DNA from: an uncultured Verrucomicrobiota bacterium
Lineage (GTDB): Bacteria > Verrucomicrobiota > Verrucomicrobiia > Opitutales > Opitutaceae
Assembly (NCBI GenBank): GCA_903876795.1
Contig: CAIRBK010000008.1
Coordinates: 1-64,000 of the forward strand
DNA length: 64,000 bases
Reading direction: 5' to 3'
This document shows, in pieces, positions 2,829-61,990 of the stretch. The notes beneath the pieces are model-generated. The model was not told the origin of the DNA. It was given only the letters and a program-made list of their open reading frames with translations, and made no database searches. The position numbers were made by a program, and so were the translations under genes. The stretch's first letter is position 1. Every line of letters begins with the position of its first letter.

Positions 2829-2908
2829 GTTACTTTCTCAATGGCTCAACCTTGGGGGCGAGCTGGATGCTTGCGCTTGACCCTGGATTTAGGTCACGTT
2901 GCCCCTTC

Positions 2909-3964
2909 ATGCACAAGACGTCCGACATCAATGTCGTGGAGACACGCCCTCTGCCCTCGCCGGCCACCCTGCTCGCCGAGCTGCCCAAGACGGAGGCCCA
3001 GGCAGATTTCATCACGCGCTCACGCGACGAGATTAACCGCCTCATCTTCACCAACGACCGCCGCTTCCTCCTCATCATCGGCCCCTGCTCGATCCACGAC
3101 CCGGAAGCCGGCCGCGACTACGCCCGCCGCCTCGCCAAACTCGCCTCCGAGGTCTCCGACCGCGTGATGGTCGTCATGCGCGTCTATTTTGAGAAACCCC
3201 GCACCACCGTGGGATGGAAGGGCCTCATCATGGACCCGCATCTCGACGGTTCGCACGACATTGCCGCAGGCCTGCGTCTCGGCCGCTCCTTCCTGCGCGA
3301 GGTTCTCGACCTCGGCCTGCCCACCGCGACCGAGTTCCTCGATCCGATCACGCCCCAATACATCGCAGACCTGGTCTGTTGGGGTGCCATCGGCGCCCGC
3401 ACCACCGAATCCCAGACCCACCGCCAGCTGGCCTCGGGTCTCTCGATGGCCATCGGATTCAAAAACGGTACCGACGGCGGCCTCCAGGTCGCGGTCAACG
3501 CCATCAAGGCCGCCTCCCAGCCGCAGACATTTCTGGGCGTCAACATGGACGGTGCCGCCTCCGCCATCGTCACCCGAGGCAATCGCAACTGCCACATCGT
3601 CCTGCGCGGCGGCGCCTCCGGCCCCAACTACTCCGCCGAACACATCCTCAAGACCGAACAAGCCCTCTCAAAGGCGGGCCTGCCTCTCTCCATCCTGGTG
3701 GACGCCTCCCACGACAACTCCGCCAAGAAGCCCGAGCTGCAGCCCGATGTCGTCCGCGCCATGCTGGCGCAAATCACCGCCGGCAACACCTCCATCATGG
3801 GCGCTATGGTCGAGAGCAACATCGAGGCCGGCAACCAGCCGTTCCCCCAGCCAAAGGAAAACCTCCGCTACGGCGTGAGCATCACCGATGGCTGCATCGG
3901 CTGGGAAACGACCGAGAATATGGTGCGCGAGATCCACGCCTCCCTCGCCCCCCACTTCGCCTAG
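2909..3964 (+). CDS. aroF: 3-deoxy-7-phosphoheptulonate synthase (type I DAHP synthase)
   Basis: Condenses phosphoenolpyruvate with erythrose 4-phosphate, the first step of the shikimate pathway to aromatic amino acids. The 351-residue product matches the length of the AroF/AroG/AroH enzymes. It carries GPCSIHDP (metal and substrate region), KPRTTVGWKG and the late GAMVESNIEAGNQ segment of the type I family. I chose the ATG giving MHKTSDINVVET; an open frame continues upstream to 2852 without family similarity. Which aromatic amino acid inhibits it cannot be read with confidence, so the symbol stands for the family. A 160-bp dispersed repeat begins 4 nt after the stop. Confidence 0.9.
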   Translation: MHKTSDINVVETRPLPSPATLLAELPKTEAQADFITRSRDEINRLIFTNDRRFLLIIGPCSIHDPEAGRDYARRLAKLASEVSDRVMVVMRVYFEKPRTTVGWKGLIMDPHLDGSHDIAAGLRLGRSFLREVLDLGLPTATEFLDPITPQYIADLVCWGAIGARTTESQTHRQLASGLSMAIGFKNGTDGGLQVAVNAIKAASQPQTFLGVNMDGAASAIVTRGNRNCHIVLRGGASGPNYSAEHILKTEQALSKAGLPLSILVDASHDNSAKKPELQPDVVRAMLAQITAGNTSIMGAMVESNIEAGNQPFPQPKENLRYGVSITDGCIGWETTENMVREIHASLAPHFA

Positions 3965-3967
3965 CTT

Positions 3968-4127
3968 GTTTCGGATATAAATGAGGCCGGCGTGAGAGAA
4001 GCAGCGGGCTCGGCCAAGGCGGCCGAGACGGAGGCGACCCGGCGGGTCGTGCCGTCGAGGGCAACGCCGGCCCAGCCTGTTTACCCTCTCAATCGTAGAG
4101 TTCGACGACCTGAGTTATTTCAGAAAC
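3968..4127. repeat. 160-bp MITE-like element, copy A
   Basis: This 160-bp stretch aligns end to end, without length change, with 60010-60169. Long shared runs include GCGGGCTCGGCCAAGGCG and GCAACGCCGGCCCAGCC. The right end TTATTTCAGAAAC is intact. The left end GTTTCGGATATAA has decayed from the GTTTCTGAAATAA seen in copy B. The element starts right after the aroF stop and encodes no transposase. No target-site duplication is visible. Confidence 0.75.
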
Positions 4128-4157
4128 ACACCCTGGACCGGCGGCATCCCTGCGCCG

Positions 4158-7281: not shown

Positions 7282-7320
7282 CCAGGGAATAACTAACACA
7301 ATGGGTTAGTTGCTCCCTGG
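7282..7320. repeat. Palindromic repeat family 1, copy 2
   Basis: The core is at 7291-7311 (AACTAAC, ACAATGG, GTTAGTT). Outside it CCAGGGA (7282-7288) and TCCCTGG (7314-7320) are exact reverse complements, so the stem extends beyond the conserved core with sequence of its own. It lies in the divergent promoter region between the esterase and pseudouridine synthase genes. Confidence 0.85.
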
Positions 7321-29444: not shown

Positions 29445-29480
29445 CCGGAATAACTAACCCATTGTGTTAGTTGTTACCGG
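29445..29480. repeat. Palindromic repeat family 1, copy 3
   Basis: The core at 29452-29472 reads AACTAAC, CCATTGT, GTTAGTT, the reverse complement of copies 1, 2 and 4. Outer CCGG tetramers at 29445-29448 and 29477-29480 are also complementary. It lies between yceI and the dioxygenase gene. Confidence 0.85.
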
Positions 29481-30488: not shown

Positions 30489-31136
30489 ATGCAACTCCAC
30501 GACGCCACCCACACCCTGCGCCTCGGCGCCACGCTCGCGAAAGCCCGCGGCGCTGTCATCCTCATCCACGGACGCGGCTCGTCCGCCGACGACATCATCA
30601 GCCTCGCCAAGGCCTTCAACTCCTCCCCCGACCTCGCCTATCTCGCGCCCGACGCGACCAACGGCACCTGGTATCCAAATCGTTTTCTCGTCCCGCCCGC
30701 GCACAACGAACCCTGGCTCTCCAGTGCGCTCGCCGTCATCGACACCCTCGTTGCCGAAGCGCTCGCCGCCGGCATTCCCTCCGAACGCATCGGCATCGTC
30801 GGCTTCTCCCAAGGCGCGTGCCTGGCCCTTGAATACGCCGCCCGCCACCCGCGCCGCTACGCCTTCGTCGCCGGATTAAGCGGCGCGTTGATCGGACCGA
30901 CCGACAACCTGCGGGAAACTGCGAATCTGTGCCGCACCCCGCTACTGATCGCCTGCGCAGACCGCGACGCCCACATCCCGCTGGAACACGTCGAACACAG
31001 CGCCGCCGCCCTGGCCGCCTTCAACGCCGACGTGACCAAACAGATTTTCCCCGGCTCCACCCACGGCGTCTTCTCCGAGGAAGTCGAGTGGCTCCGACGC
31101 CACGCCTCCACCTTCGCCACCCCGGCCATCAACTAA
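30489..31136 (+). CDS. Alpha/beta hydrolase, MhqD-like carboxylesterase/phospholipase
   Basis: 215 residues. The oxyanion segment ILIHGRGSSADD, the nucleophile elbow GFSQGA (Ser), CADRDAHIPLEHV (Asp) and GSTHGVFSEE (His) make up the catalytic triad of the phospholipase/carboxylesterase family. MhqD-type enzymes are co-induced with MhqO in quinone stress. The ATG at 30489 lies 5 nt after the dioxygenase stop; a TTG at 30480 could be used instead. Its TAA stop lies inside copy 4 of palindromic repeat family 1. Confidence 0.87.
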   Translation: MQLHDATHTLRLGATLAKARGAVILIHGRGSSADDIISLAKAFNSSPDLAYLAPDATNGTWYPNRFLVPPAHNEPWLSSALAVIDTLVAEALAAGIPSERIGIVGFSQGACLALEYAARHPRRYAFVAGLSGALIGPTDNLRETANLCRTPLLIACADRDAHIPLEHVEHSAAALAAFNADVTKQIFPGSTHGVFSEEVEWLRRHASTFATPAIN

Positions 31137-31151
31137 CACAATGGGTTAGTT
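31131..31151. repeat. Palindromic repeat family 1, copy 4
   Basis: Core AACTAAC, ACAATGG, GTTAGTT. The TAA stop of the esterase gene (31134-31136) is part of the left arm, so the repeat overlaps coding sequence. One extra C-G pair extends the stem. It is in the orientation opposite to copies 3 and 5, which lie on its two sides. Confidence 0.85.
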
Positions 31152-31504: not shown

Positions 31505-31543
31505 CCACTGAACAACTAACCCATTGTGTTAGTTGTTCAGTGG
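31505..31543. repeat. Palindromic repeat family 1, copy 5 (longest stem)
   Basis: Core at 31514-31534 (AACTAAC, CCATTGT, GTTAGTT). The whole stem is perfect over 16 bp: CCACTGAACAACTAAC pairs with GTTAGTTGTTCAGTGG around a 7-nt loop (31521-31527). The outer nine base pairs differ from those of the other copies yet still match each other. It lies about 95 bp before the helicase gene. Confidence 0.9.
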
Positions 31544-57425: not shown

Positions 57426-58538
57426 ATGCCCGACGACCGGCCATTTGTTTTTGTCTGCGGAGCCGACGACTTCCTCGTCAACCGGCTGGGCAAGGCGCGC
57501 TACGACGAGTTGACCCGCGACGTGACCGACGAGTTTGCCCGCGAGGTCATCAGCGGCTTCGCCAACAACGTCGGCGAGGTCGAGTCCGCCCTCAACCGCT
57601 TCCGCGAAAGCGTGCAGACCGTCTCCATGTTCGGCGGCAAACGCGTGGTCTGGTTAAAAGACGTCAACTTTCTGGCAGACACCGTCACCGGCCGCGCCGA
57701 GAGCACGCTCAAGCTCGTCGAAGACCTCCAGGAAATCCTCGCTGCGGTCGATCCCGCGCAGGTCGCCGTCGTCATCACCGCCGCGCCCATCGACCGCCGC
57801 CGCGCCTTCCCCAAGTGGTGCGAAAAAACCGCCGACTTCACACTCGTCGGCGGTGACGGCGACGGCGCCGCCGAGTCGCTCGCCGGCGTGATCCTCGCCG
57901 AGGCCCGCGAGCTGGGCGTGTCGTTTGGCGAAGGCGCCGCGCAACTCCTCCTCGCCAAGGTCGGCGCCAACACCCGCCTGCTCATCGAGGAGACTCGCAA
58001 GCTGGCGACCTTTGCCGGAGGCGCGGACGGCAAGGCCGCCCTCATCGAGGAGGCCCACGTCGCCGAGCTCACCGCCAACACCGCCGAGGGCGATTTCTTC
58101 GAGGCGGCCGAGGCGTTTTTCGCCGGCGACCTGCCATGGACGCTCGCCGCCCTGCACCACCATTTTTTCACCGGCGGCGACGCCCGCCCGATCATCAGCG
58201 CCCTGCAAAACCGCAACCGCATCCTCATCCAGGTGCGTGCATTGGTCGACGCCGGCGAGGTGCGGCTGGGCCCGCGCGGGCTCGACGGACTCGCCAAGGC
58301 CGCGCCGACCTACGGCCGCCACTTCGTGGGCGCGGGCGAGAAAAGCTCGTTCAACCTCTTCAGCCAAAACGCGTGGTATGTCGGCAAGCTCGCCGGCGGC
58401 GCCAAACTCCCGCCGCTGCGCCGCCTGATCGACAACCAGCGCGAATTTATCCGGGCCTTCGAAGAGATCGTGCAGCGCCCCGACGAGCAGGAGGAAGTCC
58501 TCCGCGAGATGGCCGTGCGGTGTTTGTCGGTTGCTTGA
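57426..58538 (+). CDS. holA: DNA polymerase III subunit delta
   Basis: 370 residues. Delta opens the beta clamp during loading. The N-terminal half (FVFVCGADDFLVNRLGKARYD, then VQTVSMFGGKRVVWLKDVNF) and the AAA+-like helical domains, with LGANTRLLIEETRKL and GDFFEAAEAFFAGDL, fit the HolA family. No functional P-loop is expected in delta and none is seen. The C-terminal collar region (LRRLIDNQREFIRAFEEIV) is present. The length is usual. This is the only replication protein in the window. Confidence 0.9.
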   Translation: MPDDRPFVFVCGADDFLVNRLGKARYDELTRDVTDEFAREVISGFANNVGEVESALNRFRESVQTVSMFGGKRVVWLKDVNFLADTVTGRAESTLKLVEDLQEILAAVDPAQVAVVITAAPIDRRRAFPKWCEKTADFTLVGGDGDGAAESLAGVILAEARELGVSFGEGAAQLLLAKVGANTRLLIEETRKLATFAGGADGKAALIEEAHVAELTANTAEGDFFEAAEAFFAGDLPWTLAALHHHFFTGGDARPIISALQNRNRILIQVRALVDAGEVRLGPRGLDGLAKAAPTYGRHFVGAGEKSSFNLFSQNAWYVGKLAGGAKLPPLRRLIDNQREFIRAFEEIVQRPDEQEEVLREMAVRCLSVA

Positions 58539-58614
58539 GCCGTTCCCGACCTCAGGACAAGCCTGCGACGCGCCCACTCCGGCGCACCTCCTGCATCTCA
58601 GGCGTAACCAGACC

Positions 58615-59955
58615 ATGACTTGGACGTCGTATATCCATATGCGTCCATTCCGCGACCACCGGCTCCTTCGAAGCTGTAACCAAGTGGGTGTCTCGACGGT
58701 CCTGTTGTTGATGGGCCTGTTGACTAGTGCATTCGCCCAGCCACCTGCGGGACCAGCGGGAGTGTTTGTGATCGGCGACGTCCATCCGGTGGCCGACGAA
58801 GTCGCCAAGTTCGATTTCGATTTCGTCTCCGGCTACACCCTGAGGATCGTCTGGAGCGACCTGGAAACTTGGGATGCCACCACGCAAGCCCCCCGCTACG
58901 ATTTTAGCCGCATCGACACCACGCTCGAAAACTTACGCAGAAGGGGGAAACGGATGACGCTTGAGCTTTTCGTCACCCAGGCCCCCGCCTACATCTTGGC
59001 GCAGCCGAATGTCGCCACTTGGCTAAATCCCAACCCCAACCAAGGCGGGATACAGGTTGTGCCTTGGGACGCGACGGCTCTACACGCATACCAGGCCCTT
59101 ATCCAGGCACTGGCTAATCACACGGTGGCCGGTACCTCATGGCGATTGGCAGACCACCCCGCACTTGAATCGGTCGACGCGCCGATCATCGGACTCCAGG
59201 GCCTGCGTGAACTTTCGAACACTCTTATCAATCACCCCGGTTATACTCGTGAAGGATTTGTTCAATCAGTGGTGGATTCCGTCGCTACCAGCCGCAACGC
59301 CTTCCCGCTCAAATTTGGCTTCCTTGCGTTCTTCGCCATGTCCGACGCCACCAGCAATCCAGCGCTCGACGATGCCGTTTACACCCGACTGACGAGCGAG
59401 TTCAACCTGCCCGGAAAACCCTCGCTCGGATTTTTTCAAGAAACCCTCAGCGACCTCGGCCCACAACCCTCGACCTTGGGCAAAATCCTCGCCAAGGCCG
59501 CGCCAGAAACCTACGTGATGTTTCAAGCCTTGCGGCCATGGACACTGAAGGCCGGGACCCCTCGCCCGAGAGAAATCGCCAGCGCGACCCCGCTCGCCGG
59601 ACTCGAGCTCGCTTGGGCCAACTACGGGGCCACTTACGTTGAGCTTTACGGAGCGGATATTCTTAATTCTGACAACACCAGCGGGCTGCGCTCATGGAAC
59701 ACCTTTCTCAACGCCGTCGGCGCGGTGCGAGCCTCCACCGCCGCCCCTCAACTCCACAACCTGGGCAGCGACGGATTCAGGCTCATTTGGGATGCATCTC
59801 CCTACCTCAACTATCGTATCCAGCAATCTACCGATCTGATTGGTTGGACTACATTGGGCACCACTGAACCGCTTAACGGCAACGTACCCGTGCCCGTTCC
59901 GAACGCCCCTCCCCGCATTTTTTACCGGGTAGAAATTATAGCCCCAGTACGTTGA
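58615..59955 (+). CDS. Secreted TIM-barrel-like protein of unknown function
   Basis: 446 residues. An N-terminal signal segment (VSTVLLLMGLLTSAFA) precedes a domain with the order of a glycoside hydrolase barrel: VFVIGDVHPVADEVAKFDFD, DFSRIDTTLENLRRRGKRMT, and QALIQALANHTVAG. The last 70 residues (DASPYLNYRIQQSTDLIGW, ending FYRVEIIAPVR) form the short beta module common at the end of exported Verrucomicrobia proteins. No catalytic pair is clear. A later ATG at 58639 is an alternative start. Lower GC than neighbours suggests acquisition. Confidence 0.75.
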   Translation: MTWTSYIHMRPFRDHRLLRSCNQVGVSTVLLLMGLLTSAFAQPPAGPAGVFVIGDVHPVADEVAKFDFDFVSGYTLRIVWSDLETWDATTQAPRYDFSRIDTTLENLRRRGKRMTLELFVTQAPAYILAQPNVATWLNPNPNQGGIQVVPWDATALHAYQALIQALANHTVAGTSWRLADHPALESVDAPIIGLQGLRELSNTLINHPGYTREGFVQSVVDSVATSRNAFPLKFGFLAFFAMSDATSNPALDDAVYTRLTSEFNLPGKPSLGFFQETLSDLGPQPSTLGKILAKAAPETYVMFQALRPWTLKAGTPRPREIASATPLAGLELAWANYGATYVELYGADILNSDNTSGLRSWNTFLNAVGAVRASTAAPQLHNLGSDGFRLIWDASPYLNYRIQQSTDLIGWTTLGTTEPLNGNVPVPVPNAPPRIFYRVEIIAPVR

Positions 59956-60009
59956 TACGTCTCCGCCACTGAGCCCCGTCGGCGAAAAACATCAGGGCGG
60001 TTAGGGCAT

Positions 60010-60169
60010 GTTTCTGAAATAAATCGGGTCGACGTGAGCGGACCAGCGGGCTCGGCCAAGGCGACCGAGAAGGATGCGCCCCGGCGGGATGTGCCGTCGA
60101 GTGCAACGCCGGCCCAGCCGGCTTCTCCCCTCACTCGCAGAGTTCGACGACCTGTGTTATTTCAGAAAC
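60010..60169. repeat. 160-bp MITE-like element, copy B
   Basis: This copy has perfect 13-bp terminal inverted repeats, GTTTCTGAAATAA and TTATTTCAGAAAC, with further pairing of GGTCGACG and CGACGACC inside. It is identical in length to copy A at 3968-4127 and shares most of its interior. It starts 54 bp after the stop of the secreted protein gene. No transposase and no clear target duplication are seen. Confidence 0.8.
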
Positions 60170-60571
60170 AAACCCCAGGCAAAGGGCATGGAAAATCCAG
60201 CCCGTTGCCGGGGCAGTGAGCGTAGCCCCATGGAAAACCATTCATCATTGCGGCTGACTGCGCGAAGCCTGAGGCCACATCTCCGGCTTCGCACTGGCCA
60301 TCTTACTTATCGAGGGCGACGACCTCATGAAAACAGAGGTGCGCTGGGGTGTCTTCGCACTCGTTACCTTGCTCGCCCTCCAGCGAGTGCTCCCTGGCTG
60401 AAATCGATCGCACCTTCGGCAAACCGGCCTGACCGGCGCGCAGCCGCGCCCATCGGCGTAATCGGCGGTTAACACCCCGACTCCGTTTCTGATTTACCGG
60501 GCTCTCCGAAAAAATCCCCGCTGGATTTTCTTTGGCGTTTGGACGTTTGGCGTTTGGAGTTTGCCTCAACT
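60170..60571. other. Gene-free region upstream of purB with hairpins
   Basis: About 400 bp without a recognisable gene. It contains an 8-bp inverted repeat (GCGAAGCC at 60262-60269, GGCTTCGC at 60285-60292) and a 7-bp one (GCACTCG 60357-60363, CGAGTGC 60384-60390). Copy iii of the short phrase repeat (60449-60472) follows. A GGCGTTTGGA direct repeat lies just before purB (about 60533-60563). The purB promoter should be here but cannot be picked out. Confidence 0.5.
60449..60472. repeat. Short intergenic phrase, family 3, copy iii
   Basis: CCCATCGGCGTAATCGGCGG followed by TTAAC. It resembles the segments at 11323-11344 and 46810-46838, with the common end GGTTAAC or CGGTTAC. It lies about 100 bp before purB. 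Confidence 0.35.
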
Positions 60572-61990
60572 ATGTCCGCCATCCCCAACGTCCTCGCCGA
60601 ACGCTACGCCTCGCCGCTCATCAAAGACATCTGGTCGCCCGCCGGCCGCATCACCATCGAGCGCGATTACTGGATCGCCGTCATGAAGGCCCAGCGCGAC
60701 CTCGGCCTGCTCATACCGGCCGCCGCCATCGCCGACTACGAAAAGGTCAAACACCAGATCGACCTCGCCGACATCGACGCCCGCGAACGCGTCACCCTCC
60801 ACGATGTCAAGGCCCGCATCGAGGCCTTCAACGCCCTCGCAGGCCGCGAATCCATCCACCTCGGCCTGACCTCGCGCGACCTCACCGAAAACGTCGAGCA
60901 ACTCCAAATCGCCCGTTCGCTGGAGGTTGTCCGCATGAAAACCGCCGCCGCGCTCCTGAAGCTCGGAAAGCGCGCCAAACAATACCGCACGCTCATGCTC
61001 ACCGGCCGCACGCACAACGTGCCCGCCCAGCCGACCACCCTCGGCAAGCGTTTCGCCATGTTCGGCCAGGAACTGCTCGCCGCGTTCACCGGCCTCGACG
61101 AGATCACCGCGCGTTACCCCGTGCGCGGCCTCAAGGGCGCCGTCGGCACCCAGCTCGACCAGCTCACGCTCTTCAACGACGCCGCGAAGGTCGCCGCGCT
61201 CGAAGCCCGCATCCTCAAACACCTCGGTTTCAAGGCCTCGCTCTTCGCGGTCGGCCAGGTTTACCCGCGCTCGCTCGACTTTGAAGTCGTCTCCGCGCTC
61301 CACCAGGTCGGCGCCGCCGCCGCGAGTTTCGCCACCACGCTCCGCCTCATGGCCGGCCAGGGCCTGCTCACCGAGGGCTTCCAGAAAGGCCAGGTCGGCT
61401 CCTCCGCCATGCCCCACAAGGTCAACGCCCGCAACTGCGAGCGCATCTGCGGGTTTTCGACGATCCTCTCCGGTTACGTGACCATGACCGGCGCGCTCTC
61501 CGGCCATCAATGGAACGAGGGCGACGTCTCCTGTTCGGTCGTGCGCCGCGTGGCGTTGCCCGACGCGTTCTACGCCATCGACGGCCTGCTGGAAACGCTC
61601 CTCGCCGTGCTCAACCAGATGGACGTCTTCGAGGCCGCCATCGGAGCCGAGATCCAGCGCCAGTTGCCCTTCCTCGCGACCACGACGATCCTGATGGAGG
61701 CCGTGAAGGCGGGCGTGGGCCGCGAGACCGCGCACCTCGCGATCAAGGAAAACGCCCTCGCCGCCGCCAAGGCCCTCCGCACCGGCCAGGGCGAGTCCGA
61801 CCTCGTCGTCCTCCTCGCCGCCGACGCCCGCCTGGGCCTGACCGAGAAGGCGCTGCGCGCGATCCTCGGCGACAGCCAACGCTTCGTCGGCGCCGCCCCG
61901 CAGCAGGTGGACGCCTTTGTCGCGTCGGTAAAAGCCGCGACCCGCAAGGTCAAAGGCGCCGCCGCCTACGAGCCGGGCAAACTGCTGTAA
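60572..61990 (+). CDS. purB: Adenylosuccinate lyase
   Basis: 472 residues, start MSAIPNVLAERYASPLI. The fumarase/aspartase superfamily signature SSAMPHKVNARNCERI is complete, with TGRTHNVPAQPTTLGKR carrying the catalytic His and LTSRDLTENVEQ near the substrate site. PurB splits succinyl groups in the purine pathway, at two steps (SAICAR and adenylosuccinate). The length is typical. The frame upstream to 60539 is not conserved. Convergent with the signal-peptidase-like gene, 158 bp away. Confidence 0.94.
   Translation: MSAIPNVLAERYASPLIKDIWSPAGRITIERDYWIAVMKAQRDLGLLIPAAAIADYEKVKHQIDLADIDARERVTLHDVKARIEAFNALAGRESIHLGLTSRDLTENVEQLQIARSLEVVRMKTAAALLKLGKRAKQYRTLMLTGRTHNVPAQPTTLGKRFAMFGQELLAAFTGLDEITARYPVRGLKGAVGTQLDQLTLFNDAAKVAALEARILKHLGFKASLFAVGQVYPRSLDFEVVSALHQVGAAAASFATTLRLMAGQGLLTEGFQKGQVGSSAMPHKVNARNCERICGFSTILSGYVTMTGALSGHQWNEGDVSCSVVRRVALPDAFYAIDGLLETLLAVLNQMDVFEAAIGAEIQRQLPFLATTTILMEAVKAGVGRETAHLAIKENALAAAKALRTGQGESDLVVLLAADARLGLTEKALRAILGDSQRFVGAAPQQVDAFVASVKAATRKVKGAAAYEPGKLL

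Follow-up and report, generated by a model that had tools for sequence, protein, structure and literature searches.

The window analysed here, a stretch of 64,000 nucleotides from an uncultured member of the Opitutaceae, contains two copies of a short repeat about 56 kb apart. What kind of repeat is this, and does its ability to fold matter to its success? The initial annotation left a choice between a non-autonomous mobile element and a REP-like structured repeat. Comparative sequence analysis leads us to think that it is probably a non-autonomous miniature transposon with IS5-type ends, carrying a selected, strand-specific folded core that would aid the spread of its lineage.

Boundaries and surroundings of the element

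The 13-bp inverted repeats that first drew attention are exact complements, as described: GTTTCTGAAATAA lies at 60010-60022 and its reverse complement at 60157-60169. The window contains five occurrences of this 13-mer at up to 2 mismatches, where 0.30 would be expected. A second copy of identical size was also correctly recognized. It spans 160 bp at 3968-4127 with 85% identity to the 60-kb copy; its left end, GTTTCGGATATAA, has 2 mismatches, and both 13-mers are intact only in the 60-kb copy. Two details call for revision. The additional inner pair, GGTCGACG/CGACGACC, is complementary at 7 of 8 positions rather than exactly, and the 160-bp repeat, though real, is narrower than the conserved unit, which alignment of copies shows to be 172 bp (60004-60175). 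The conserved ends are GGGTGTGTTTCTGAAATAA and TTATTTCAGAAACACACCC, the terminal inverted repeats (TIRs) are 19 bp long, and the consensus flanks are YTA before the element and TAR after it. At the window copy these flanks are TA (60002-60003) and a decayed CA (60176-60177). Among 37 pattern-matched TIR pairs in the stretches analysed, 26 enclose exactly 172 bp and 6 enclose 171 bp. The two ends of one element match each other at 87% of positions, versus 68% after shuffling, and TIR subfamilies vary between elements. The features are as follows.

2852..3964, plus strand: DAHP synthase gene (PF00793); the second copy adjoins its stop codon; context only
3962..4135, plus strand: second element copy, with degraded left end (147.8 bits)
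58531..59955, plus strand: 474-aa open reading frame with no Pfam match, upstream of the 60-kb copy; context only
60002..60177, plus strand: whole element with flanking TA and decayed CA (match to covariance model R1, G000:C8:60002-60177, 166.6 bits)
60004..60022, plus strand: left TIR, GGGCATGTTTCTGAAATAA, with 2 changes relative to consensus
60022..60157, plus strand: inner folded domain, with strand-specific covariation
60054..60114, plus strand: near-frozen core, GGCCAAGGCGACC..GGAGG..TGCC..GCAACGCCGGCC, hand-mapped from alignment columns 53-113
60134..60142, plus strand: linker hairpin CTC-GCA-GAG (CYC-GNA-GRG in relatives)
60157..60175, minus strand: right TIR, read on that strand as GGGTTTGTTTCTGAAATAA, with 1 change relative to consensus
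60539..61990, plus strand: adenylosuccinate lyase (purB-like) gene downstream of the 60-kb copy, whose start codon may be further inside; context only

The 60-kb copy thus sits between the 474-aa frame and purB. Among relatives, 47 purB loci (of 80 fetched) were searched and contain no copy of the element. The sequence upstream of purB in these relatives failed to align with the window, so they offer no orthologous empty site for this copy. Separately, a 21-bp palindrome, AACTAACNCANTGNGTTAGTT, recurs in the window at 2808-2828, 7291-7311, 29452-29472, 31131-31151 and 31514-31534 (0 expected in shuffles), and genome-wide in 38 places with at most one mismatch.

Copies, insertion sites and a candidate transposase

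A genome-wide search had been proposed, and it found many further copies. With 40 of 112 candidates scored, BLAST detects at least 43 matches in the home genome. The TIR pattern, at up to 3 mismatches, matches 73 times in forward and 61 times in reverse orientation, versus 0 and 0 for the reversed control. The covariance model yields 92 matches, some of which are the other strand of one place; among the matches listed there are at least 74 distinct places. Neither a lack of copies nor a lack of length conservation therefore speaks against the earlier claim. Long frames contain fewer insertions than random placement would give: of 48 empty sites, 26 fall in frames of at least 250 aa, versus 86.7% of 3000 random sites.

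Target-site duplication is best seen where the element has entered another repeat. Another MITE-like repeat, whose ends read TGATACCAATGG, lacks the element at five or six sites and holds it at about eleven, at one fixed position and in both orientations; it forms an insertion hotspot (G000 C12:13237, C87:15367, C60:13659, C60:38904 and others). In the cleanest pair, the empty site on contig C87 reads GATCGTTTAGTCCAAAAGC and the filled site on C12 reads GATCGTTTA, element, TAGTCTAAAAGC, with TA duplicated at this single clean site. Among 52 copies, TA and CA are the most frequent dinucleotides on the left flank, TA and TG on the right. They match in 10 of the 52, barely above chance (8.7), and this statistic fails to show duplication.

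The left TIR, GGGTGTGTTTCTGAAATAAC, is also found in a second repeat family, where it is followed by CCGTGTAGC.. and a different body (G000 C60:9173, C60:15763, C13:11193 and C89:13048; L141, L142, L156 and L152). Direct tandem copies of the element occur at G000 C44:2943-3291 and C87:17822-18117, and at L323 (G010) and L346 (G233), some sharing the intervening TA. At G000 C72:30942-31236 (L219, L229) a copy adjoins a broken IS5-type transposase fragment.

To find candidate mobilizing partners, the 13 genus genomes were searched for DUF4096 transposases. One of them, G012, carries a 904-bp insertion sequence with ends TAGGGTGTGTCTCGGAAATAAATCGG and TAGGGCGTGTCTCGGAAATAACGC, which encodes a protein of 243 aa that reaches 254 bits against NF033580, the IS5 family. 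Related ends are found on IS5_3 elements in G001 (TAGGCCGTGTTTGCTAAATAR) and in a MAG labelled Lacunisphaera sp. (L085, TAGGGTGTGTTTGCAAAAT). The exact end pattern is present in 6 of 30 IS5_3 loci (7 matches in 76 kb). Control loci for DDE_3 contain 2 matches in 89 kb, one being the same C76 place and the other resembling an element end; purB control loci contain 2 in 673 kb, one for each end of the L085 element. The home assembly yielded remnants but no intact IS5_3 element with matching ends, and NF033580 has no match in 12 of 27 element-bearing genomes. By sequence, the element's TIRs look like the termini of NF033580 (IS5-family) insertion sequences from related genomes.

The element has the anatomy of a MITE. 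It is short (172 bp), multicopy (at least 74 places) and of constant length, lacks a transposase gene, and has 19-bp TIRs, YTA/TAR flanks and a TA duplication at the C12/C87 site. IS5_3 elements with such ends occur in related genomes, and at home only as remnants. It is best read as a MITE that an IS5-type transposase would move in trans. Of the two identities first proposed, the mobile element is favoured by these traits together with the IS5-like TIRs and the nested insertions in both orientations. A REP or REPIN identity is rejected, since length and ends differ from those of a 20-40 bp palindrome with a GTAG or CGTC tag, the ends here being transposon-type TIRs. Membership of a known Rfam family is likewise rejected: the window copy has 0 matches up to E 10, and nothing relevant matches on relatives. 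In open-access text we found no description of the element.

By BLAST, 9 of 56 genomes are matched, including one non-element, a 36-bp match in G003 (L039), a genome in which model R1 finds none. R1 detects the element in 8 of 13 genus genomes and, with stricter filters, in 28 of 250 family genomes (6 of 49 genera) and 12 of 384 class genomes, the sole class-level match outside the order (G293) being weak. In family f22 of the same order (G449, G602), the core lies between a different inverted repeat, TATACCACTTCGAAAAAATTCTGG, within an element of about 270 bp that has a second hairpin. These f22 elements carry TATACCACTTC.. ends, and in G602 there is a third end sequence as well, ATACCGAATTTAGG.. 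The versions in G032 and G066 are long and have TAGG-type ends. In the longer versions (L378-L397; G032, G066, G225, G602, G449), the second hairpin bears the conserved internal-loop motif in inverted form (GGCGTTG..CGCCTTG). Viral contigs contain no exact match to the core, and plasmids gave none.

Strand-biased covariation in the inner domain

RNA folding of the element had been suggested as a check. The whole window copy folds well relative to shuffles (z -5.17), and its inner part on its own only slightly better than shuffles (z -1.78). More can be learned from comparison of elements over this inner domain of about 136 nt. RNAalifold, applied to an alignment of 29 elements, predicts 61 pairs, and double changes occur in 33 of them. 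With the TIR stem excluded, 45 pairs remain, in which 93.8% of cells are paired (85.3 shuffled) and 139 show double changes (51.8 shuffled); covariation is 0.330, versus 0.173 for shuffled alignments and at most 0.095 for slid structures. Across 103 distinct elements from 25 genomes, the 53 inner pairs contain 758 double-change cells versus 244 shuffled. These 103 are what remains, once duplicates are removed, of 105 rows selected among R1 matches by score, f22 and core-only elements excluded; several alignment columns and sequences are interrelated, and the counts are not independent trials. Covariation outside the TIR stem thus exceeds both shuffled and slid controls, by statistics that ignore kinship. 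The middle pair of the linker hairpin is T-A in 46 and C-G in 39 of 88 rows. The RNAalifold pairs 134-150 to 137-147 were dropped in favour of a local hairpin (G-U 56, A-C 56).

Deviations from Watson-Crick pairing are not symmetric. In the 103 elements, G-U outnumbers A-C by 447 to 122 in the inner domain (638 to 331 shuffled); in the TIR stem the counts are 69 and 67, with no bias. The inner ratio is 318:118 when columns with a Watson-Crick majority are considered. When one element is drawn per genome, the figures are about 83:29 for the inner domain and 16:19 for the TIR stem. Among non-Watson-Crick states present in more than 5 sequences, 22 are G-U and 2 are A-C in the inner domain, versus 3 and 3 in the TIR stem; the rarer inner states comprise 33 G-U and 49 A-C.

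Resident copies of the home genome behave differently. Of 54 home loci no shorter than 160 bp, 51 enter the alignment (the contig-edge tandem on C87, the tandem on C44, and C96 were dropped). Single changes from a Watson-Crick pair in the inner domain give G-U 79 times and A-C 76 times, and inner double changes number 16 versus 13.4 expected. Divergence of the core from its consensus is 7.1% among home copies and 9.2% across the 103 elements; for the outer arms, the corresponding values are 8.3% and 32%. Inner pairs covary across genera, with mismatches on one strand favouring G-U over A-C, and old resident copies decay without such bias. The two patterns together imply that the fold of one strand is selected in the transposing lineage rather than at each insertion. 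The benefit of the fold would therefore fall to the element's lineage rather than to host genes.

In single-stranded DNA, G-T also beats A-C, so the strand bias does not by itself prove RNA. The plus strand would most likely fold as RNA, or else as single-stranded DNA, and the fold would help the transposing lineage spread.

Competing explanations and known systems

MITEs are usually thought to require their ends only. On that basis the element could be an ordinary MITE in which the TIRs alone matter, the long palindrome being left over from the way it arose and the covariation resulting from correction of one arm by the other (quasipalindrome template switching). The element as a whole is indeed near a palindrome, its two ends agree well with each other, and long hairpins with no known function are formed by many bacterial MITEs (PMC2229807, PMC10969869). 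Yet arm correction predicts no strand bias, against 22 G-U and 2 A-C common inner states, and the home copies, with scarcely more double changes than expected, have arms that appear uncorrected. The core is also far more conserved than the arms. Pure arm correction is thus disfavoured, and we regard the ordinary-MITE explanation as unlikely.

It is also conceivable that the plus strand works not as RNA but as a folded single-stranded DNA substrate in replication, in recombination or in transposition through a single-strand step. Mobile elements with folded single strands exist, such as IS200/IS605 and integron attC, and strand bias cannot separate RNA from single-stranded DNA. On the other hand, TIRs, a TA duplication and ends of IS5 type are what double-stranded DDE transposition would leave, and the TIR stem has no strand bias, which makes this explanation distinctly improbable. 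A structured RNA or terminator maintained by the host at each site, as in a REP-like or regulatory repeat, would account for the stable hairpin and for the depletion of insertions in long reading frames. But the plus strand lacks a terminator-like run of T at the window copy, and resident copies decay without bias (79:76). Such drift among residents, with the fold kept in the lineage, argues against host-maintained copies as well as against arm-to-arm correction; maintenance at each site is accordingly rejected, and we give this explanation very little credence.

We therefore return to a miniature transposon with a folded core selected in its lineage. Whether this amounts to an undescribed Opitutales class of structured RNA, travelling as cargo in miniature transposons, is in our estimation an even bet. 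In such a selfish mobile RNA module, a near-frozen core would be combined with exchanged TIRs that ride different transposases, and selection would act on the lineage, not on resident copies. One speculative possibility is that a conserved RNA-binding factor of the host recognizes the core and that copies are better tolerated or mobilized as a result; the same core between unrelated TIR types makes this the most likely role, rather than service to each insertion site. A strand-specific, lineage-level constraint inside the element, across genera and two unrelated TIR types, suggests that spread may be decided by more than transposase recognition. Comparing G-U with A-C in shared states and in resident copies is also a simple way, applicable in general, to tell whether selection keeps the fold of a mobile repeat for the element's sake or for the host's; we found no strand test of this kind in the open-access literature.

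Like the IS5-family (NF033580) insertion sequences, the element has ends of the form TAGGG.GTGT.. and TA at each end; IS5 encodes a transposase and lacks a folded core, whereas the reverse holds for the element. The IS5-ended MITEs of Porphyromonas gingivalis (BrickBuilt and others, PMC4596501) are similarly short and non-coding, with TIRs like those of resident IS5-family elements and predicted stem-loops. Their TIRs are different, and the available portion of that report does not describe cross-genus covariation, a strand test or TIR exchange. BOX and RUP of Streptococcus pneumoniae (PMC3049150) are likewise non-autonomous repeats with folded transcripts and mutually paired TIRs, and the ends of RUP resemble IS630-Spn1. 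Their sequence is unrelated to that of the element, and terms for covariation or compensation are absent from the text of that source as far as it was accessible. Finally, the GTAG-tagged REPs of Opitutus terrae, as presented in the accessible part of PMC3733652, are also an abundant palindromic repeat in a Verrucomicrobia genome. Those REPs are 20-40 bp with a tetranucleotide tag, whereas the element described here is 172 bp long, with transposon-type TIRs and a TA duplication.
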